Below, piece by piece: positions 13,470-48,639 of a DNA stretch of 64,000 bases. The notes beneath the pieces are model-generated. The model ran no database searches and was not told the origin of the DNA. It worked only from the letters and a program-made list of their open reading frames with translations. Numbering within the stretch: the first letter of the stretch is position 1; each line of letters opens with the position of its first letter. The position numbers and the translations under genes are program-made. Source of the stretch: Halogeometricum rufum (GTDB taxonomy: Archaea; Halobacteriota; Halobacteria; Halobacteriales; Haloferacaceae); assembly GCF_900112175.1 (NCBI RefSeq), contig NZ_FOYT01000002.1, forward strand, positions 558,001 through 622,000, given 5' to 3'.

Positions 13470-14285
13470 TCAGAGGACGACGTCGCCGTCGAGGAGCAGT
13501 TCCGCCTCGGTCCGTTCGGCCTCCGGTCCCTCCGCGACCAGCGTCGGTTCGCCGACCCGGTCGTCGAAGCGCTCCGGGTCGGGTTCGACGCGCGTCAGCA
13601 TCGCCGAGAAGCGCGTTCCCTGTCTCCCCTCGGCGGAGACGATACCGCCGTACCGTCGCTCCTCGAACGGCGTCTCGTCGGGGTCGGGGAACTCCTCGCG
13701 GATGATCTGTGCCGTCTCGCGGACGTATTCGGCCGCTCGCCGCTGGCTGTACTGGCTCTCCGCGTGGTACGCCTCGGCGTGTTCGGGGTCGAGGTCCGTG
13801 GCGTCGTGTTCCGGCGACTCGTAGCGGACCGACTCCGTCGTCCGGTATCCGCTCGCGAAGCGAGCGTTCACCGTGAAGCTGTCGGGGTACCGGAGGATGA
13901 TGGGAAAGAACAGCACGTCGGTGACGGTGGTGCGCTGCTGTATCCGCCAGAGCCCCTCGAAGTAGTAGGCGGCGAGCGCGCCGATTCGGTCGTCCCGCTC
14001 ACCGCGGCTGTAGGCGACGGCGACGGACTCGTAGTCGTCGCCCGCGAACTGCCGGAGTCGCCGGCGGAAGCTCTCGGCGACCCGGTCGAACTCCGCCTCG
14101 TAGGCCGCCAGCAACGGGACGTCGGGGTCCGCGAGCAGGTCCGCCTTCCGCTCTCTGGCGTCCGCGACGCGCATCATGTTCTCGTGGAACAGGCGTTCGG
14201 CGTCCTCGTCCGGGAGCGGTGTCCGGACGGCGGTCCGGTGTAGCACCTCCGCATCCCCGTTGAACCGTTGGCCCGTTATCGTCAT
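13470..14285 (-). CDS. Hypothetical protein
   Basis: A 271-residue soluble acidic protein, largely helical by composition, with no recognised motif. The first part (residues 25-110) contains paired helices (ERLFHENMMRVADARERKADLL, FDRVAESFRRRLRQF) and the tail is beta-rich with RFSAMLTRVEPDPERF. A TATA-like GGAATTATC lies about 30 nt upstream of the ATG at 14285, supporting that start and leaderless transcription. The promoter-side sequence lies only 55 nt from the left end of the transposon-like element at 14349, so that insertion may have altered its upstream control. Confidence 0.72.
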   Translation of the reverse strand: MTITGQRFNGDAEVLHRTAVRTPLPDEDAERLFHENMMRVADARERKADLLADPDVPLLAAYEAEFDRVAESFRRRLRQFAGDDYESVAVAYSRGERDDRIGALAAYYFEGLWRIQQRTTVTDVLFFPIILRYPDSFTVNARFASGYRTTESVRYESPEHDATDLDPEHAEAYHAESQYSQRRAAEYVRETAQIIREEFPDPDETPFEERRYGGIVSAEGRQGTRFSAMLTRVEPDPERFDDRVGEPTLVAEGPEAERTEAELLLDGDVVL

Positions 14286-14340
14286 CGACCACACAACTAT
14301 TTCGAGTGTTGATAATTCCTCGGTCGACGGTCGGAACGGG

Positions 14341-14361
14341 AGGAAAGCGGCTCTGTTGAAA
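14341..14361 (+). repeat. Left target duplication and terminal inverted repeat of the MBL element
   Basis: AGGAAAGC (14341-14348) is followed directly by GGCTCTGTTGAAA (14349-14361). The 8-mer recurs in the same orientation at 15385-15392, and the 13-mer recurs inverted at 15372-15384. This is the arrangement left by a transposition event with an 8-bp target duplication. Confidence 0.9.
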
Positions 14362-15384
14362 TCCTCTGCCGACGATAGTTTGTCGAGGCCGTGCTGAATA
14401 CAGAGCGCATATCGGGCAGAATGCCGTCGTTGAATCGCTAAGTGTAGGGCGCGAATCCGTCAAAGAGATGGCGTTTAAGCTCGCTCGACGAGCAAGTGAG
14501 AACGGGCGTTAGCGAGCGAGAGCGAGCGCCGTGTCGATATCTCCGTACCAGGGGTTCCCGTGTCCGGGCAGTAGAGTCACTGATCCCAACCCTTCGAGGC
14601 GAGCGAGCGACGCTTCGGCCTCCTCGGGGTCTTCATCGGCGGCACCGAGTAGTTGCGGATCTCCCTCCTTTTGGGTGAAGATGTCCCGCGTGGCGAGCAC
14701 GTCGCCACAGAAGAGAATTTCGCGGTCCTCGACGAATAATACACACGACCCCGGCGTGTGACCGGGCGCAAAGATCACACGCGGTTCGCCTGGCACAGAG
14801 AGCACATCCCCCTCGGAGAGCAGATCAACATCGGCAAGCGGTTCGACGGACCTGACGCCATCGCGGAACATCTCAAGAACGTAGGCGAAGAACCGTGGCC
14901 GCCAAAGGTTCCGTAGGTACCATCTCGGAGGACTCTGTGGATGGCTGCGAAGGAGGGGTAAGTCGTCTGGATGACAGTAGACAGAAACGTTCTGGCTGGC
15001 CAACGTCTTGGCGAAGCCGACGTGGTCTACGTCTGCATGTGTCAGCACGAGCGCGGCAACGTCGTCAAGTTCGTAGCCGTTTTCATCGAGCCAGGCAACT
15101 AGCTGCGGCCAGTGGGCGGGGAGCCCCGCGTCGATGATCGTCACCTCCTCGTCCCCTTCGAGGATATACCAGTTGATCCGACGCGTTCCGAACCGGTAGA
15201 CGCCCTCGGCCACCTTGCGATCTGGGACGTGAATACGGTTACTAGTTGAGGACATGCTATGCTAGCACTTCGCATCCAACGTAGATAGGTGTCTCGTCTG
15301 TGGTAGGTTCCAGTAGGTTTGCTGTAGACACCCTCTACAGTCGACACGCGATACTTGTCAGTATCTGTAGGTTTCAACAGAGCC
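14349..15384 (-). mobile_element. Transposase-less transposon-like element carrying an MBL-fold gene
   Basis: This is a 1,036-bp unit bounded by perfect 13-bp inverted repeats (GGCTCTGTTGAAA) and an exact 8-bp direct duplication (AGGAAAGC). The terminal sequence resembles IS6-family ends (GGTTCTGTTGCAAA in IS257), and that family makes 8-bp duplications; the family assignment is inference. The only gene inside is a metallo-beta-lactamase-fold protein. I see no DDE transposase or remnant. The interior is less GC-rich than its flanks. It would need a transposase in trans. Removing it rejoins the sequence upstream of the gene at 14285 to the 3' side of the hydrolase gene ending at 15411. Confidence 0.85.
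14509..15255 (-). CDS. MBL-fold metallo-hydrolase carried by the mobile element
   Basis: A 248-residue metallo-beta-lactamase-fold enzyme, cytoplasmic. The metal motif is THADVDHVG (His73, Asp75, Asp77, His78), where the second histidine of the usual HxHxDH is an aspartate. Later ligands are His in APGHTPGS, Asp in FCGDVLA and His in LPGHGNPW. The N-terminal VAEGVYRFGTRRINWYILEG strands and the IIDAGLP turn are typical of glyoxalase II/lactonase-like members. The substrate is unknown. A TATA-like CCTATCTACG lies about 30 nt ahead of ATG 15255. Its codon use is visibly less GC-biased than its neighbours, agreeing with recent acquisition. Confidence 0.9.
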   Translation of the reverse strand: MSSTSNRIHVPDRKVAEGVYRFGTRRINWYILEGDEEVTIIDAGLPAHWPQLVAWLDENGYELDDVAALVLTHADVDHVGFAKTLASQNVSVYCHPDDLPLLRSHPQSPPRWYLRNLWRPRFFAYVLEMFRDGVRSVEPLADVDLLSEGDVLSVPGEPRVIFAPGHTPGSCVLFVEDREILFCGDVLATRDIFTQKEGDPQLLGAADEDPEEAEASLARLEGLGSVTLLPGHGNPWYGDIDTALALAR

Positions 15385-15392
15385 AGGAAAGC
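15372..15392 (+). repeat. Right terminal inverted repeat and target duplication of the MBL element
   Basis: TTTCAACAGAGCC (15372-15384), the exact inverse of the left end, is followed by AGGAAAGC (15385-15392), the exact direct copy of the 8 bp before the left end. The hydrolase gene's stop codon lies only 19 nt further right, so the insertion just missed that gene. Confidence 0.9.
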
Positions 15393-15410
15393 GGGTCTGA
15401 ACGCCGCGAA

Positions 15411-16061
15411 TTACTCGCCGAGCAGGCGGCCGACGAGGGTTCGCAGGAACTCCACTTCCTCGGGGAAGATGCCGTGGCCGCGGCCCTCGTACACGTCGAA
15501 CCGAACGTCGGCACCCATCCGTTCGAACTCATCCACCGTCTCCTCGGCGCGCGAGACGGGGATGTGCGGGTCGTCGTCGCTGACGCCGAGCATGACGGGC
15601 GTGCCGTCGAGCGACCCCTCGAAGTGGAACGTCTCCCCCTCGGGGCCGACGAACCCGCCGGAGAGGAGGACGACGCCGCCGTAGCGGCGGGGGTTCAGCG
15701 CCGCGTACGACGAGAGGAGACACGCCCCCTGCGAGAACCCCGTCAGCAGGAGTTTCTCTGCCGGCAGACCGGTCGTCTCGCGGGCGCGTTCGACGGCGCG
15801 GGCGAGGTGCGCCAGCGCCGACTCGTAGAACGGGGCGTTCGACTCCCGGGGGGCCATGAACGAGTTCGGGTACCACGTGCCGCGCGCCGCCTGCGGGGCG
15901 ACGTAGTGGACGCCCTCGCGGCCGAACTCGTCGGCGAACTGGAGCATCCCGCGGGCAGTCGCGCCGCGGCCGTGGACGAGGACGACGGCGGCGTCGGCCT
16001 CCTCGGGGTCGGCGCCGGCGGTCAGAATCGGCTGGTCGGCGTGCGGGTCGGCGTCGGCCAT
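15411..16061 (-). CDS. Alpha/beta hydrolase, MhqD-like phospholipase/carboxylesterase
   Basis: A 216-residue alpha/beta hydrolase. The nucleophile elbow is GFSQG, the oxyanion region LVHGRGATARGM, and the catalytic Asp and His are seen in GVSDDDPHIP and GRGHGIFPEE. It resembles MhqD, which in Firmicutes is made with the MhqO dioxygenase during quinone or catechol stress. Its ATG overlaps the stop of the upstream VOC dioxygenase (position 16061), so the two are translationally coupled. The 562-residue open frame reading through from 17099 is a frame overlap, not a fusion. Its end lies 19 nt from the mobile element's duplication. Confidence 0.9.
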   Translation of the reverse strand: MADADPHADQPILTAGADPEEADAAVVLVHGRGATARGMLQFADEFGREGVHYVAPQAARGTWYPNSFMAPRESNAPFYESALAHLARAVERARETTGLPAEKLLLTGFSQGACLLSSYAALNPRRYGGVVLLSGGFVGPEGETFHFEGSLDGTPVMLGVSDDDPHIPVSRAEETVDEFERMGADVRFDVYEGRGHGIFPEEVEFLRTLVGRLLGE

Positions 16062-40645: not shown

Positions 40646-41587
40646 TCACGACTCGACGCCGAACGACTCCGCGAGGAGGTCCTCGTTCGTCTCGCCGAAG
40701 ACGCGCGTCGGTCCGTCCACCACGTCGACGGTGACCTTCGCGGGCGCGAACACCGTCTCGGGGATGTCGTAGAAGTCCCAGTCGGCGTCCTCGAATATCT
40801 GCTCGAACGGCGTGCCGTACTCGTCGGCGGCCGTCGATGGCACGTCGGCGAAGTGCTCGGAGTCCTCCGTGACCGTGAGGTGGACTTCGCCGCCGTACGC
40901 GAGGGCGTCGTTCGTCCGACCCATCGCCACGCCCTCGTCGTAACTGACGGGCGCGACGGGGGCCGAGCCGATGGCCGACAGTATCTTCCGGGGGTCGTAG
41001 CCGAGTTCGAAGAGGCGGAAGACGGCGAGTTCGGGCGCGCGCGCCGCCGTCGAGACGCTCCCGGCCATCGACCCGGTGGCGTACGTCGGCAGGAAGACAC
41101 CGCTGGGTTCGACGCCCGCCTTCTCGGCGACGTGTTCGGCCACCTCGTCGCCCGGCAGTTCGATGCTCTCGATTCCGAGGACGGTCAGGTCGAACTCGTC
41201 GAAGTACTCGACCTGGTGGAACTCGTCCTCCTCGGCGACGAGGGCGCGGGCGGGTCCGGAGCCGAGGCCCTCGAAGCCGGACTCGAAGGCGAGTTCCCAC
41301 CCGGCCTTCTGCGAGCACAGGAGGGCGAGTGCGGGGTGGTCGGTCTGGAGTTCGACGCGCGGGCGGGGCGCACCCGCCACCTCGTCCATCTCGGCCTGAA
41401 CCGTCGCGAGGCCGGCCGTCTCTATCTCCGCGAGGAGCAGTCCGGCCTCGATGCCGCCCTCGGCGTTCACGCCGAAGTCGAGGGCCGTCGCCCCCGAGTC
41501 GAGTTCGTACACGTCTATCCGGAGTTCGTCGGCGAAGTCGATGGCCTCGTCCACGAGTTCGATGGCCATGCGATTGATGGAGTCCAT
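40646..41587 (-). CDS. mch: Methenyltetrahydromethanopterin cyclohydrolase family enzyme
   Basis: A 313-residue enzyme that interconverts methenyl and formyl groups on a pterin C1 carrier. In haloarchaea the carrier is folate and the role is probably C1 supply for biosynthesis. It reads MDSINRMAIELVDEAIDFADELRI..., with DFGVNAEGGIEAGLLLAEI, PRVELQTDHPALALLCSQKAGW and the PTYATGSMAGSVSTAARAPE segment typical of Mch. The length matches the family. MDSINRM at 41587 is chosen; the in-frame extension to 41686 is rejected as non-conserved. The following 165-residue gene is coupled by a 4-nt spacer. A second lower-GC island begins upstream, at about 41700. Confidence 0.93.
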   Translation of the reverse strand: MDSINRMAIELVDEAIDFADELRIDVYELDSGATALDFGVNAEGGIEAGLLLAEIETAGLATVQAEMDEVAGAPRPRVELQTDHPALALLCSQKAGWELAFESGFEGLGSGPARALVAEEDEFHQVEYFDEFDLTVLGIESIELPGDEVAEHVAEKAGVEPSGVFLPTYATGSMAGSVSTAARAPELAVFRLFELGYDPRKILSAIGSAPVAPVSYDEGVAMGRTNDALAYGGEVHLTVTEDSEHFADVPSTAADEYGTPFEQIFEDADWDFYDIPETVFAPAKVTVDVVDGPTRVFGETNEDLLAESFGVES

Positions 41588-41755
41588 GGACGCGGGTTGG
41601 TCGTCGTCTCGTAAAGACGTTGGTAGTCTCGGGACGGCGTGCGGCGGCGTCTCGGTCGTTTTCCGACCTGTCGGCAAGAACGACACGATATCCAGAATGG
41701 CTCTGCAGCACTTGTCCGCACTCGTGCGTCCGTCTCAGAGGTTTTGTGATTTCTC

Positions 41756-42874
41756 TTAACAGAGATTCATCGCCTTCTCTGTCAGTCGATAGCGGTAGGC
41801 TTGGTTGAGAAAGACGATTCGACCGTACTCTTCGGACTTTGTGACCTCAGCAGACGACTCGATTGCATCGACGGCCGCGTTGAGGCGATCGACAGGGTCC
41901 CCCGAGTAGAGAAATTCAACGACTCGCTCTGGTGCGACGTCGAACTCTGCGGCCAATATACTCCGGATCGTCCGTCCTGCCCCGTCGGCAAGTGCGACTG
42001 ACGGCGCTGACACTGCTGTCTGTGGACCACTGAGTTCGGCTGCTTCGTCGCCGAGTTCGACCGATTGAAGCTCGTCGTCGATATGTGCCACGAGCGCGTC
42101 GAGGTTTTCGTCCGCCTCTTCGGTCACACGGCCGTTGACGATTTCGTCGATTCGTTCGCTAATTGCGAATACGTTCGGCCCGGGAGGTGTGGTGGCCTCG
42201 AGAATACCGAGGTCGACGAGGTGATCGAGAACCGTCTTGGGCTGATACTCGAGCTCAAGCTCCAACTCGTCGAGTAACTCGGCTCGTTTGATTCCTTCGT
42301 GGTCCGGATCGATTCCGGCCTGATGGAACGCTTTTGCGGTTTCAACCTGATCGTCTGTGCTGTGAGTTCCACCCTTCCGGTCCTCGATATACTGCTCTAA
42401 GCGGCTGTAATTCGCACGTTCGTCCGACGGTCCGATAGTCAGGGCGTCGGCGACGTTCGACGGGAGTTCCGGACGCGGTGCATCGAGGTGACGCTGGGAT
42501 TTTTCGGAGAGGCGCGTATTGTCGTACAACGCACGAGCAATCGGGAGACCTCTCAAATAGTTGTATTCCGTGAGTATCTCAACCCCGTATTCGGTCAGAC
42601 CATAGAACTGCGACGGAAGCTCCCGCGAGTCCTCGTTCGGTGGATGCTCGTAGCGTTCGATGATATCTGCCTCCCGGAGAACCTGCAACTGGTCCCGAAT
42701 CGCCGCTTTGTTTTTCGGGATCATGTGTGCCAGTTCATCGAGCGACGGCAGGTGTGCCGGATGACCGAGGATATACTGTAACACCAGATGGCGGGTCTCC
42801 TGAGATAACAACTGGTATATCTGCCGCTGCTCCTCGAACGGATCACGCTTGTCTGCGGCAGGCGCGTCGCTCAT
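41756..42874 (-). CDS. Winged-helix regulator in lower-GC cassette
   Basis: A 372-residue predicted DNA-binding protein. Residues about 12-85 hold a winged helix (FEEQRQIYQLLSQETRHLVLQYIL, LPSLDELAHMIPKNKAAIRDQLQVLREADIIERYE) and SQFYGLTEYGVEIL for the wing. A second winged-helix-like part appears at about 190-240 (IKRAELLDELELELEYQPKTVLDHLVDLGILEATTPPG). The C-terminal region includes GRIVFLNQAYRYRLTEKAMN. The gene is read divergently from the TIR-like gene, with an operator-like palindrome between them. Codon use is much less GC-biased than that of adjacent mch, indicating horizontal transfer. MSDAPAADKRD at 42874 is preferred to 42904 on composition. Confidence 0.82.
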   Translation of the reverse strand: MSDAPAADKRDPFEEQRQIYQLLSQETRHLVLQYILGHPAHLPSLDELAHMIPKNKAAIRDQLQVLREADIIERYEHPPNEDSRELPSQFYGLTEYGVEILTEYNYLRGLPIARALYDNTRLSEKSQRHLDAPRPELPSNVADALTIGPSDERANYSRLEQYIEDRKGGTHSTDDQVETAKAFHQAGIDPDHEGIKRAELLDELELELEYQPKTVLDHLVDLGILEATTPPGPNVFAISERIDEIVNGRVTEEADENLDALVAHIDDELQSVELGDEAAELSGPQTAVSAPSVALADGAGRTIRSILAAEFDVAPERVVEFLYSGDPVDRLNAAVDAIESSAEVTKSEEYGRIVFLNQAYRYRLTEKAMNLC

Positions 42875-42942
42875 CCTTGTATAGGAGTTCCCGGGAGAGT
42901 GCAAAACAGTTTGGGTCGACCAATGTGGTTATACAGAGAAAA

Positions 42943-42966
42943 ACCAAATTGGTCAGTAATATATTT
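42943..42966 (+). promoter_or_regulatory. Operator-like palindrome and TATA box of the TIR-like gene
   Basis: ACCAAATTGGT (42943-42953) is a perfect odd-length palindrome directly ahead of the TATA-like TAATATATTT (42957-42966), which is centred about 30 nt before ATG 42992. The outer bases GACCAAT (42918-42924) and ATTGGTC (42948-42954) also form a 7-bp inverted pair. Binding there would cover the BRE/TATA region; the divergent winged-helix protein is the obvious candidate. Confidence 0.5.
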
Positions 42967-42991
42967 GAGGCGGCGGAGTGCAGAGAGGACC

Positions 42992-43750
42992 ATGACTGAC
43001 TCGGGGCCTCCGGCCGACCCTCGTGAGATCTTCGAGAACGTGGACGAAGCGCTACAAGGACTCGAACTCGAACCTCACGAGACGTCTCAGATACTGAGCT
43101 TCGCCAACGACGAGGTCCCCCACCTCCAGACGCCCGAAACATCGTATTTCATCCTCGGGAGCTACCGAGATCCGTATATTCGGCGGTTGCGAATCGTCGA
43201 AAACGAGCTGAACAAACGACTTGGAACGTATCCGTTCCTCATGGGTGACCTCCGCGAAATCGATCTCGACCGCCTTCCCGTGTTTCGGATTCGATTCACA
43301 CTGTTAGCCGCGTACACAGACTACATCGTCGCAGTATACGAACAGGGAGCAGGTGGAGAGGTCACCGAGCTCGGCAAGATCAGCACGACACCGTACTTCG
43401 AAAAGTCGTTCGTTCTTCCGCGCGACTACACGTGGATGACCGACAAACAACTCGAGAGCCCAGCTGACGTCCTCACAGCTGCGATAAATATCCGATTCAA
43501 CGACGATCTCGACGAGGTATCTGTCGAAGAGGAGTTAGAGTCGCTACTTACACAGGCACAACAGAACGGGATCGAGATATCCCGACAGGATATCGACGAG
43601 CGGCTCCAGACGAGAGAGCAGGCCGAGGAAGAGGCCGTCTCGTATAGCTGGGTTCACCTGAACGAGTTTCGACTGTTCGAACTCCACAATCAGTGTCTAC
43701 CGTGGTCCGACCCGGACGAACTGCGGGAGATTACCCAAGAAGTCCCGTAA
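42992..43750 (+). CDS. Predicted TIR/nucleoside-deoxyribosyltransferase-like protein
   Basis: A 252-residue acidic protein. Residues 50-145 alternate strand and helix in the manner of TIR or nucleoside 2-deoxyribosyltransferase folds: SYFILGSYRDPY (52-61), then YPFLMGDLREI, FRIRFTLLAAYTDYIVAVYE and AGGEVTELGKI (120-130), with Glu123/Glu126 in the place where such enzymes keep a catalytic glutamate. The C-terminal third is helical. An NAD- or nucleotide-cleaving activity is inferred, not shown. A haloarchaeal DUF7509 relation is possible but was recalled, not checked. ATG 42992 lies about 30 nt after a strong TATA. It pairs divergently with the regulator at 42874. Confidence 0.72.
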   Translation: MTDSGPPADPREIFENVDEALQGLELEPHETSQILSFANDEVPHLQTPETSYFILGSYRDPYIRRLRIVENELNKRLGTYPFLMGDLREIDLDRLPVFRIRFTLLAAYTDYIVAVYEQGAGGEVTELGKISTTPYFEKSFVLPRDYTWMTDKQLESPADVLTAAINIRFNDDLDEVSVEEELESLLTQAQQNGIEISRQDIDERLQTREQAEEEAVSYSWVHLNEFRLFELHNQCLPWSDPDELREITQEVP

Positions 43751-43784
43751 AACAACTCCCACTCTCGAACAAGAGCGACGACGC

Positions 43785-44102
43785 CTATCCGCTTCGTTCC
43801 TTCTTTGCTTCCCGGCCGAGGTGTTCCTCCACGGCGTCTACTTTGTCCCGCGCGCGTTGGTCCGACGCCCGCTTGTCGTCTATCTTCAGGAACGTGCTCA
43901 CCCTGTCGCCCTCGACGGCCTTGTGCGCGGCGGCGACGGCGTCGAGCAGCGTGTCGACGTCGTCCGCCTCTATCACCGTCCCCATCGGGTTCGTCTCGTA
44001 GGAGACGTCGAAGTCGTCCAGCGCGGCGACGGCCTTCGCAACTTCGCCCGACATGCTGTCCTCGACGACCGGTGCGACGCTCAGCATCGCGATGACTGTC
44101 AT
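43785..44102 (-). CDS. MTH1187-family thiamine-binding protein (UPF0045)
   Basis: A 105-residue ferredoxin-like-fold protein of the MTH1187/YkoF family, which binds hydroxymethylpyrimidine/thiamine. It begins VIAMLSVAPVVEDSMSGEVAKAVAALDDFDVSYETNPMGTVIEADDVDTLLDAVAAAHKAV, a layout characteristic of this family, and ends in a basic helix. MTVIAMLSV at 44102 is the start; the in-frame extension to 44351 is not protein-like and lies over the upstream membrane-protein region. It probably acts in thiamine salvage or homeostasis. It converges on the TIR-like gene. Confidence 0.85.
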   Translation of the reverse strand: MTVIAMLSVAPVVEDSMSGEVAKAVAALDDFDVSYETNPMGTVIEADDVDTLLDAVAAAHKAVEGDRVSTFLKIDDKRASDQRARDKVDAVEEHLGREAKKERSG

Positions 44103-47680: not shown

Positions 47681-47935
47681 AGAAGTGCGCTGGCTAGGAG
47701 TTCACCGAGCGAAGCGAGGTGAACGTCGGCGAGGCTCCGCCTCACCGGGATTCGAACCACGGTCGCTCCACTCCCTGATTCAAATCCCAGGGGCTTACAC
47801 ACCGAAACTCACGAGTACCGCGGCGCGACGAGACGCGCCGCTCACAGTGTGAGTTTCGGAGAAGTGCGCTGGCTGGGATTTGAACCCAGGTTGTGACCAT
47901 GGCAAGGTCACGTGATACCACTACACTACCAGCGC
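47681..47935. repeat. Copy A of a 255-bp duplicated segment ending in tRNA-Gly
   Basis: This segment is about 96% identical to 48384-48639. It begins with a short copy of the tRNA 3' end (AGAAGTGCGCTGGCT), holds tRNA-T-arm-like fragments (GGGATTCGAACC; ATTCAAATCCCAG) and a long imperfect hairpin (CGAAACTCAC ... GTGAGTTTCG around an inner GC-rich stem), and ends in the intact tRNA-Gly gene. Confidence 0.9.
47865..47935 (-). tRNA. tRNA-Gly(GCC)
   Basis: The minus strand reads GCGCTGGTAGTG... with a complete cloverleaf of 71 nt without the encoded CCA: acceptor GCGCTGG pairs with CCAGCGC plus discriminator A, the anticodon loop TTGCCAT contains GCC, and the T arm is GGGTTCAAATCCC. It is identical to the second copy at 48569-48639. 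Confidence 0.95.
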
Positions 47936-48383: not shown

Positions 48384-48639
48384 AGAAGTGCGCTGGCTGG
48401 GAGTTCACCGAGCGAAGCGAGGTGAACGTCGGTGAGGCTCCGCCTCACCGGGATTTGAACCACGGTCGCTCCACTCCCTGATTCAAATCTCAGGGGCTTA
48501 CACATCGAAACTCACGAGTACCGCGGCGCGACGAGACGCGCCGCTCACAGTGTGAGTTTCGAGAGAAGTGCGCTGGCTGGGATTTGAACCCAGGTTGTGA
48601 CCATGGCAAGGTCACGTGATACCACTACACTACCAGCGC
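48384..48639. repeat. Copy B of the 255-bp duplicated segment ending in tRNA-Gly
   Basis: It differs from copy A by a handful of substitutions and one insertion. As in copy A, the partial tRNA 3' end lies about 185 bp to the left of the 3' end of the intact tRNA. The pair of duplications brackets the YrhK-like gene. Confidence 0.9.
48569..48639 (-). tRNA. tRNA-Gly(GCC), second copy
   Basis: The 71-nt sequence and structure are the same as at 47865-47935, with anticodon GCC in the loop TTGCCAT, acceptor GCGCTGG/CCAGCGC and T arm GGGTTCAAATCCC. Immediately after its 3' end the minus strand runs into the GTGAGTTTCG hairpin region shared with copy A. Confidence 0.95.

Follow-up and report, generated by a model that had tools for sequence, protein, structure and literature searches.

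A mobile two-gene module of haloarchaea pairing a winged-helix regulator with a protein of predicted NDT/DNPH1/TIR fold

NDT-like effectors are named in the retron literature, where NAD+-hydrolysing filaments are cited for Retron-Eco1 (PMC12548924). A parallel for the regulatory layout described below comes from the GvpD/GvpE region of haloarchaeal gas-vesicle clusters, a similarly sized divergent promoter region in which the activator GvpE binds alongside the BRE; the divergent promoters are about 108 bp apart and regulator sites lie beside each BRE (PMC4390858). That region differs from the cassette studied here in having an unrelated regulator, unrelated genes and a different site sequence. 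The cassette consists of a regulator gene, REG, and a gene for a 252-residue protein, EFF, and was found in a 64,000-nucleotide stretch of the Halogeometricum rufum genome, hereafter the window.

An inserted gene pair and its distribution

REG and EFF are divergent, with 117 bp between them, and lie between mch and a gene for a thiamine-binding protein, beyond which a BrkB-type membrane protein is encoded. The features, in window coordinates, are:

40646..41587, minus strand: mch (methenyl-H4MPT cyclohydrolase; PF02289), flank
41635..43795, no strand: approximate span of the insertion as judged against congeners, with ends uncertain by about +/-20 bp
41756..42874, minus strand: REG, 372 aa, a regulator whose ArsR/HxlR-like N-terminal winged helix ends in a conserved APRP motif and is followed by a second winged helix and a C-terminal extension
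42919..42929, no strand: predicted operator A, palindrome ACCAATGTGGT, at -55 to -45 relative to the REG start
42943..42953, no strand: predicted operator B, palindrome ACCAAATTGGT, at -49 to -39 relative to the EFF start, abutting the BRE/TATA region
42957..42966, plus strand: TATA-like element TAATATATTT, putative EFF promoter read from the sequence, about 30 bp upstream of the ATG
42992..43750, plus strand: EFF, 252 aa, predicted NDT/DNPH1/TIR fold, invariant G56, L73, E117, E126, R144 and W238
43785..44102, minus strand: thiamine-binding protein gene (PF01910), flank

As the first-pass annotation had described, both open reading frames occur at this place in divergent orientation, and the GC content of the cassette is 53-59% compared with 66-72% on both flanks. 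The EFF frame runs from an ATG at 42992 to a stop at 43750 and contains the two motifs that had been picked out, YFILGSYRDP and AGGEVTELG. The end given for REG, 41756, is correct, whereas the start given for it, 42904, is a TTG lying 10 codons upstream of the likelier ATG at 42874. Other lower-GC stretches of the window, at 1-2000 (0.595) and 14001-16000 (0.637), may be further acquired DNA, and two tRNA-Gly(GCC) genes about 0.6 kb apart (47864-47935 and 48568-48639) also lie within a lower-GC stretch.

The proposal that the cassette was acquired is demonstrated by empty sites. In two congeners mch and the thiamine-binding gene are adjacent, separated by a spacer of ~25-35 bp and lacking the cassette, and several genomes of other genera in the family likewise have the two genes side by side without it. 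Because only about 25-35 bp separate the aligned flanks in the congeners, the insertion corresponds roughly to 41635-43795, a size of ~2.16 kb, and it contains only REG, EFF and short non-coding ends. EFF is present as a single copy in its own genome, and its closest homologs (73% identity) are found in other families of the order and in none of the congeners, indicating horizontal transfer.

We identified EFF homologs in 256 of 391 haloarchaeal genomes, representing 75 of the 86 genera of the class, at 0 to 6 copies per genome. Homologs are also found on 93 plasmid records, and the model strain Halobacterium salinarum NRC-1 has a plasmid copy (VNG_RS11975 on pNRC200). None was detected outside the haloarchaea among 295 genomes of the phylum, nor in phage and viral collections, which were searched with patterns that reach close relatives only. 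Given the empty sites in congeners, the patchy distribution and the plasmid records, the REG/EFF pair is a mobile two-gene module. EFF has no family in Pfam, PADLOC, PHROGs or NCBIfam, 30 diverse members of its family gave no match to Pfam either, and a literature search found no paper on it; the family is both uncatalogued and widespread in haloarchaea.

On a Halobaculum gomorrense contig (G063), a cassette with an EFF 66% identical to that of the window adjoins mch at its 5' end and is turned the other way round (EFF 169185-169940, mch 169984-170973; L145, G063:C13:164000-176000), and the region upstream of mch may be an insertion hot spot. Intact cassettes also repeatedly adjoin an apparent HerA/NurA/Rad50/Mre11 cluster and a PLD-like (NgoFVII-type) nuclease gene (L003, L004, L006, L056), and truncated EFF or REG remnants occur at equivalent places elsewhere (L017, L018, L224), which suggests that this neighbourhood is a recurrent insertion site.

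Pairing of REG with EFF and predicted operators

In tblastn searches of 10-17 kb loci, almost every EFF proved to have a REG homolog in divergent orientation, to identities as low as about 30%. This extends to very distant EFF proteins of 180-240 aa, some of which are without the helical insert at 157-212: a divergent REG accompanies 20 of 20. In a sample of 59 genomes, a divergent REG is found at 45 of 49 EFF loci, and the four exceptions comprise one diverged REG scoring just below the cut-off (G020) and three broken EFF copies, namely a two-frame remnant, a fragment and a copy split by an ATPase gene. At one locus (L223:3552-4955) an archaeal ATPase-type gene is apparently inserted within EFF, and the C-terminal part is cut off from REG. 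Within the 59-genome sample REG proteins without EFF are common and no intact EFF without REG was seen, an asymmetry expected if unregulated EFF is costly. The pairwise distances of REG and EFF are strongly correlated (Mantel r 0.91; largest of 2000 permutations, 0.22), and together with the 45 of 49 loci this supports the earlier suggestion of a regulator dedicated to EFF. No other neighbour is conserved, as no non-REG neighbour cluster occurs in more than 15 of 77 loci. The idea that REG serves an alternative effector was rejected, since EFF-less REG proteins share no common divergent partner.

Both winged helices of REG are confidently predicted, in agreement with its initial reading as a two-winged-helix regulator. 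The first has the ArsR/HxlR-like fold, with scores below Pfam cut-offs, and matches to PADLOC profiles are weak and at the winged-helix level only (Csa3, E 3e-5). The ArsR/HxlR-like fold is typical of repressors. REG residues 1-138 are homologous to 3U1D, a winged-helix protein of Halomicrobium mukohataei (E 9e-23; Z 18.8), which is uncharacterised and, unlike REG, is without the second winged helix and the C-terminal extension. The long C-terminal part of REG is limited to the clade closest to the window. A role for the APRP tail in binding a toxin is weakened by the presence of APRP in EFF-less REG proteins.

The 64 kb window contains two copies of the palindrome ACCA-N3-TGGT and no more (chance expectation 0.27); both are in the REG-EFF intergenic region, 24 bp apart. 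In closer clades REG and EFF are usually 110-125 bp apart, and among 61 non-redundant homologous intergenic regions there are 23 exact palindromes against 0.15 expected, most of them at positions -74 and -49/-50 relative to the EFF start; none of the 61 has a palindrome with a gap other than 3 bases. Across the whole genome the motif is not enriched (17 sites, control 18), leading us to reject a REG regulon spanning the genome, and there is no second close pair elsewhere in it. The absence of both genome-wide enrichment and another close pair makes the two palindromes read as a private operator, and we consider it likely that REG binds them to control EFF. The position of the TATA-like element fits a leaderless EFF mRNA. 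REG could be an activator, given that operator B abuts the BRE, a placement like that of the GvpE site in the gas-vesicle region (PMC4390858).

Fold and conserved residues of EFF

The AlphaFold2 model of EFF (pLDDT 85.2, pTM 0.81) has a b-a-b-a-b-a-b core followed by C-terminal helices, with low confidence at loop 120-122. Structural comparison with VIA-align placed DNPH1 first (Z 11.1, 129 aligned residues, rmsd 2.7 A), followed by TIR-STING (10.5), the MAL TIR domain, NDTs, SPARTA TIR-APAZ, the Retron-Eco1 effector (9.5) and SARM1. The best 45 rows, from Z 11.1 to 8.8, are nearly all DNPH1, NDT or TIR proteins, and unrelated response regulators begin at Z 8.7. Foldseek gave weak matches (best E 3.7e-3), the top one being outside the NDT/DNPH1/TIR class. 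By the model and VIA-align, EFF has the flavodoxin-like parallel a/b fold of the NDT/DNPH1/TIR (DRHyd) superfamily; a structure without such a fold, named in advance as counting against the enzyme reading, is therefore not what the model (pLDDT 85) shows.

Six residues (G56, L73, E117, E126, R144 and W238) are invariant in 30 EFF members with identities down to 23%, and E126 is invariant in 43 aligned members as well. This glutamate lies within GxxxELG at the position of the NDT/DNPH1 catalytic glutamate and, by position, starts the helix after strand 3 (GxxxExG). In hhalign comparisons of the EFF profile with haloarchaeal DNPH1-like proteins, the best local match is the catalytic motif, with the glutamates in register. 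The scores against DNPH1-like and TIR proteins fall within the range of 41 decoy families, and we rejected them as independent proof of homology. Neither PF05014 (NDT) nor PF13676 (TIR_2) gave a significant profile match, and a PDB sequence search with EFF profiles returned nothing relevant. The first-pass description of EFF as TIR- or deoxyribosyltransferase-like is supported as regards the fold and the invariant candidate glutamate; the profile comparison with PF05014 and TIR_2 proteins is not above decoys. Since the profile score does not exceed the decoys, EFF is assigned to the superfamily by its fold and its pattern of residues. EFF is probably an enzyme of the NDT/DNPH1/TIR fold class.

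A separate haloarchaeal family of about 203-212 aa (L171-L187) matches TIR_2, and two of its members (at L164/L177 and L165/L178) also give weak matches to NDT (PF05014). By profile comparison the family is linked, with a probability of 93.6% and E 2e-7, to DNPH1-like proteins. Its conserved C-terminal half contains Cys, and the family may be a bridge between TIR and NDT.

Proposed mechanism, alternatives and known systems

The analysis itself yields the gene pair and its mobility, the conserved sites, a predicted fold and a set of residues that never vary. The mechanism that we infer goes further: that EFF is catalytic, what it cleaves, whether REG represses or activates, what the trigger is and that growth stops. 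REG would occupy both ACCA-N3-TGGT palindromes, govern both promoters and silence EFF until a stress or infection signal alters its binding. Once produced, EFF would act as an N-glycosidase, with E126, assisted by E117 and R144, cutting the base off a nucleotide, nucleoside or NAD+, and the depletion of this substrate would lead to growth arrest. We propose this reading of the mobile pair, a REG-switched N-glycosidase that stops growth in the style of toxin-antitoxin or abortive-infection systems, with a probability of roughly 0.45. A role of EFF in growth arrest or defence, taken by itself, is a tentative assignment, a little short of even odds. The weak Foldseek matches, decoy-level profile scores, lack of a PADLOC match and weak neighbour enrichment all speak against the proposed mechanism, as does the presence of APRP in EFF-less REG proteins. 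The genes form a compact adjacent pair that is inherited together and includes a predicted DNA-binding regulator, as in toxin-antitoxin systems, but their divergent arrangement is unlike the usual co-directional operon.

The genomic context of the cassette bears on the defence component. EFF matches no system protein among the anti-phage systems of PADLOC 2.0.0. In some clades the neighbours include genes for AbiE components, PLD, HerA, NurA, Rad50 and Mre11, the last four named by reading their sequences and not by family scan. PADLOC matches near the cassette number 133 families in 146 proteins, compared with 72 in 141 for a matched control, a weak excess with much redundancy, and we treat defence-island enrichment as only suggestive evidence. 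Given this control, a defence role of the cassette is kept as a possibility that we lean against. In a plasmid-borne clade (L064, L066, L067, L069), the cassette adjoins AbiEi-type antitoxin genes as well as another winged-helix gene that is REG-like but shorter.

The main rival to a growth-stopping EFF is a sanitising or metabolic hydrolase under REG control, in which a DNPH1-like EFF, induced through REG, would clear a damaged or unusual nucleotide and have no toxicity or defence role. DNPH1 provides the best structural matches, the motif order of EFF (GSxR / VxE / GxxxELG / xxR) resembles that of DNPH1-like proteins (for example, at L150), and separate DNPH1-like genes are also present in haloarchaea. 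The patchiness of EFF, its 0 to 6 copies, its presence on plasmids, its recurrent decay and its co-mobility with REG fit accessory conflict genes better, and we regard the sanitising role as unlikely. The plasmid records that carry the pair might instead point to an addiction or selfish module of plasmids and islands, in which loss of REG with EFF retained is harmful and any antiviral function is incidental. That the insertion is minimal, that the window has no transposase, and that REG occurs alone whereas no intact EFF was seen without REG would agree with such a module; the divergent gene order would not, and many chromosomal copies are solitary, with no obvious addiction benefit there, so that we think this explanation improbable.

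Strict pairing and co-divergence would also be expected of a sensory regulatory unit, in which the EFF fold is non-catalytic, only binds a nucleotide and modulates REG, and the low confidence of the model at loop 120-122 leaves some room for this. Two acidic residues and an arginine are nevertheless invariant at active-site positions throughout the family, whereas pure binding domains usually lose the catalytic glutamate, and REG proteins occur without EFF. We judge a ligand sensor to be the least probable of these alternatives.

Returning to the REG-switched N-glycosidase, EFF shares with the NDT/DNPH1 (Rcl) family (PF05014) the predicted fold, the GS loop after strand 1, the catalytic-type glutamate in GxxxELG and the arginine after strand 4. 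It differs from that family in giving no Pfam match and no significant profile comparison, and in having the helical insert at 157-212, an invariant VxE, a C-terminal tryptophan and a regulator always beside it. With the TIR domains of TIR-STING, SARM1 and SPARTA TIR-APAZ it has in common the superfamily fold (Z 8.6-10.5) and a candidate catalytic glutamate, but there is no TIR_2 profile match and no attached oligomerising partner domain, cyclase, Argonaute or STING domain. The Retron-Eco1 effector, among the structural matches above, is likewise NDT-like and is kept inactive by partner components; neither a reverse transcriptase nor an msDNA partner is a recurrent neighbour of the cassette, whose control appears to be transcriptional. 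More generally, none of the obligate partners of retrons, Thoeris, CBASS or SPARTA (RT/msr, ThsA, cyclase, pAgo) recurs beside EFF in 77 loci.

The EFF family is found in about two thirds of the sampled haloarchaeal genomes, often in several copies, and is tied to its own regulator. It is conceivable, if doubtful, that it constitutes an uncatalogued system of immunity or suicide spread across the haloarchaea, in which a cleaver of NAD+ or nucleotides with the TIR/NDT fold is freed by a REG switch and not by a second messenger or complex assembly. If EFF does cleave NAD+ or nucleotides, immunity of the TIR/NDT type would extend to a transcriptionally switched archaeal form.
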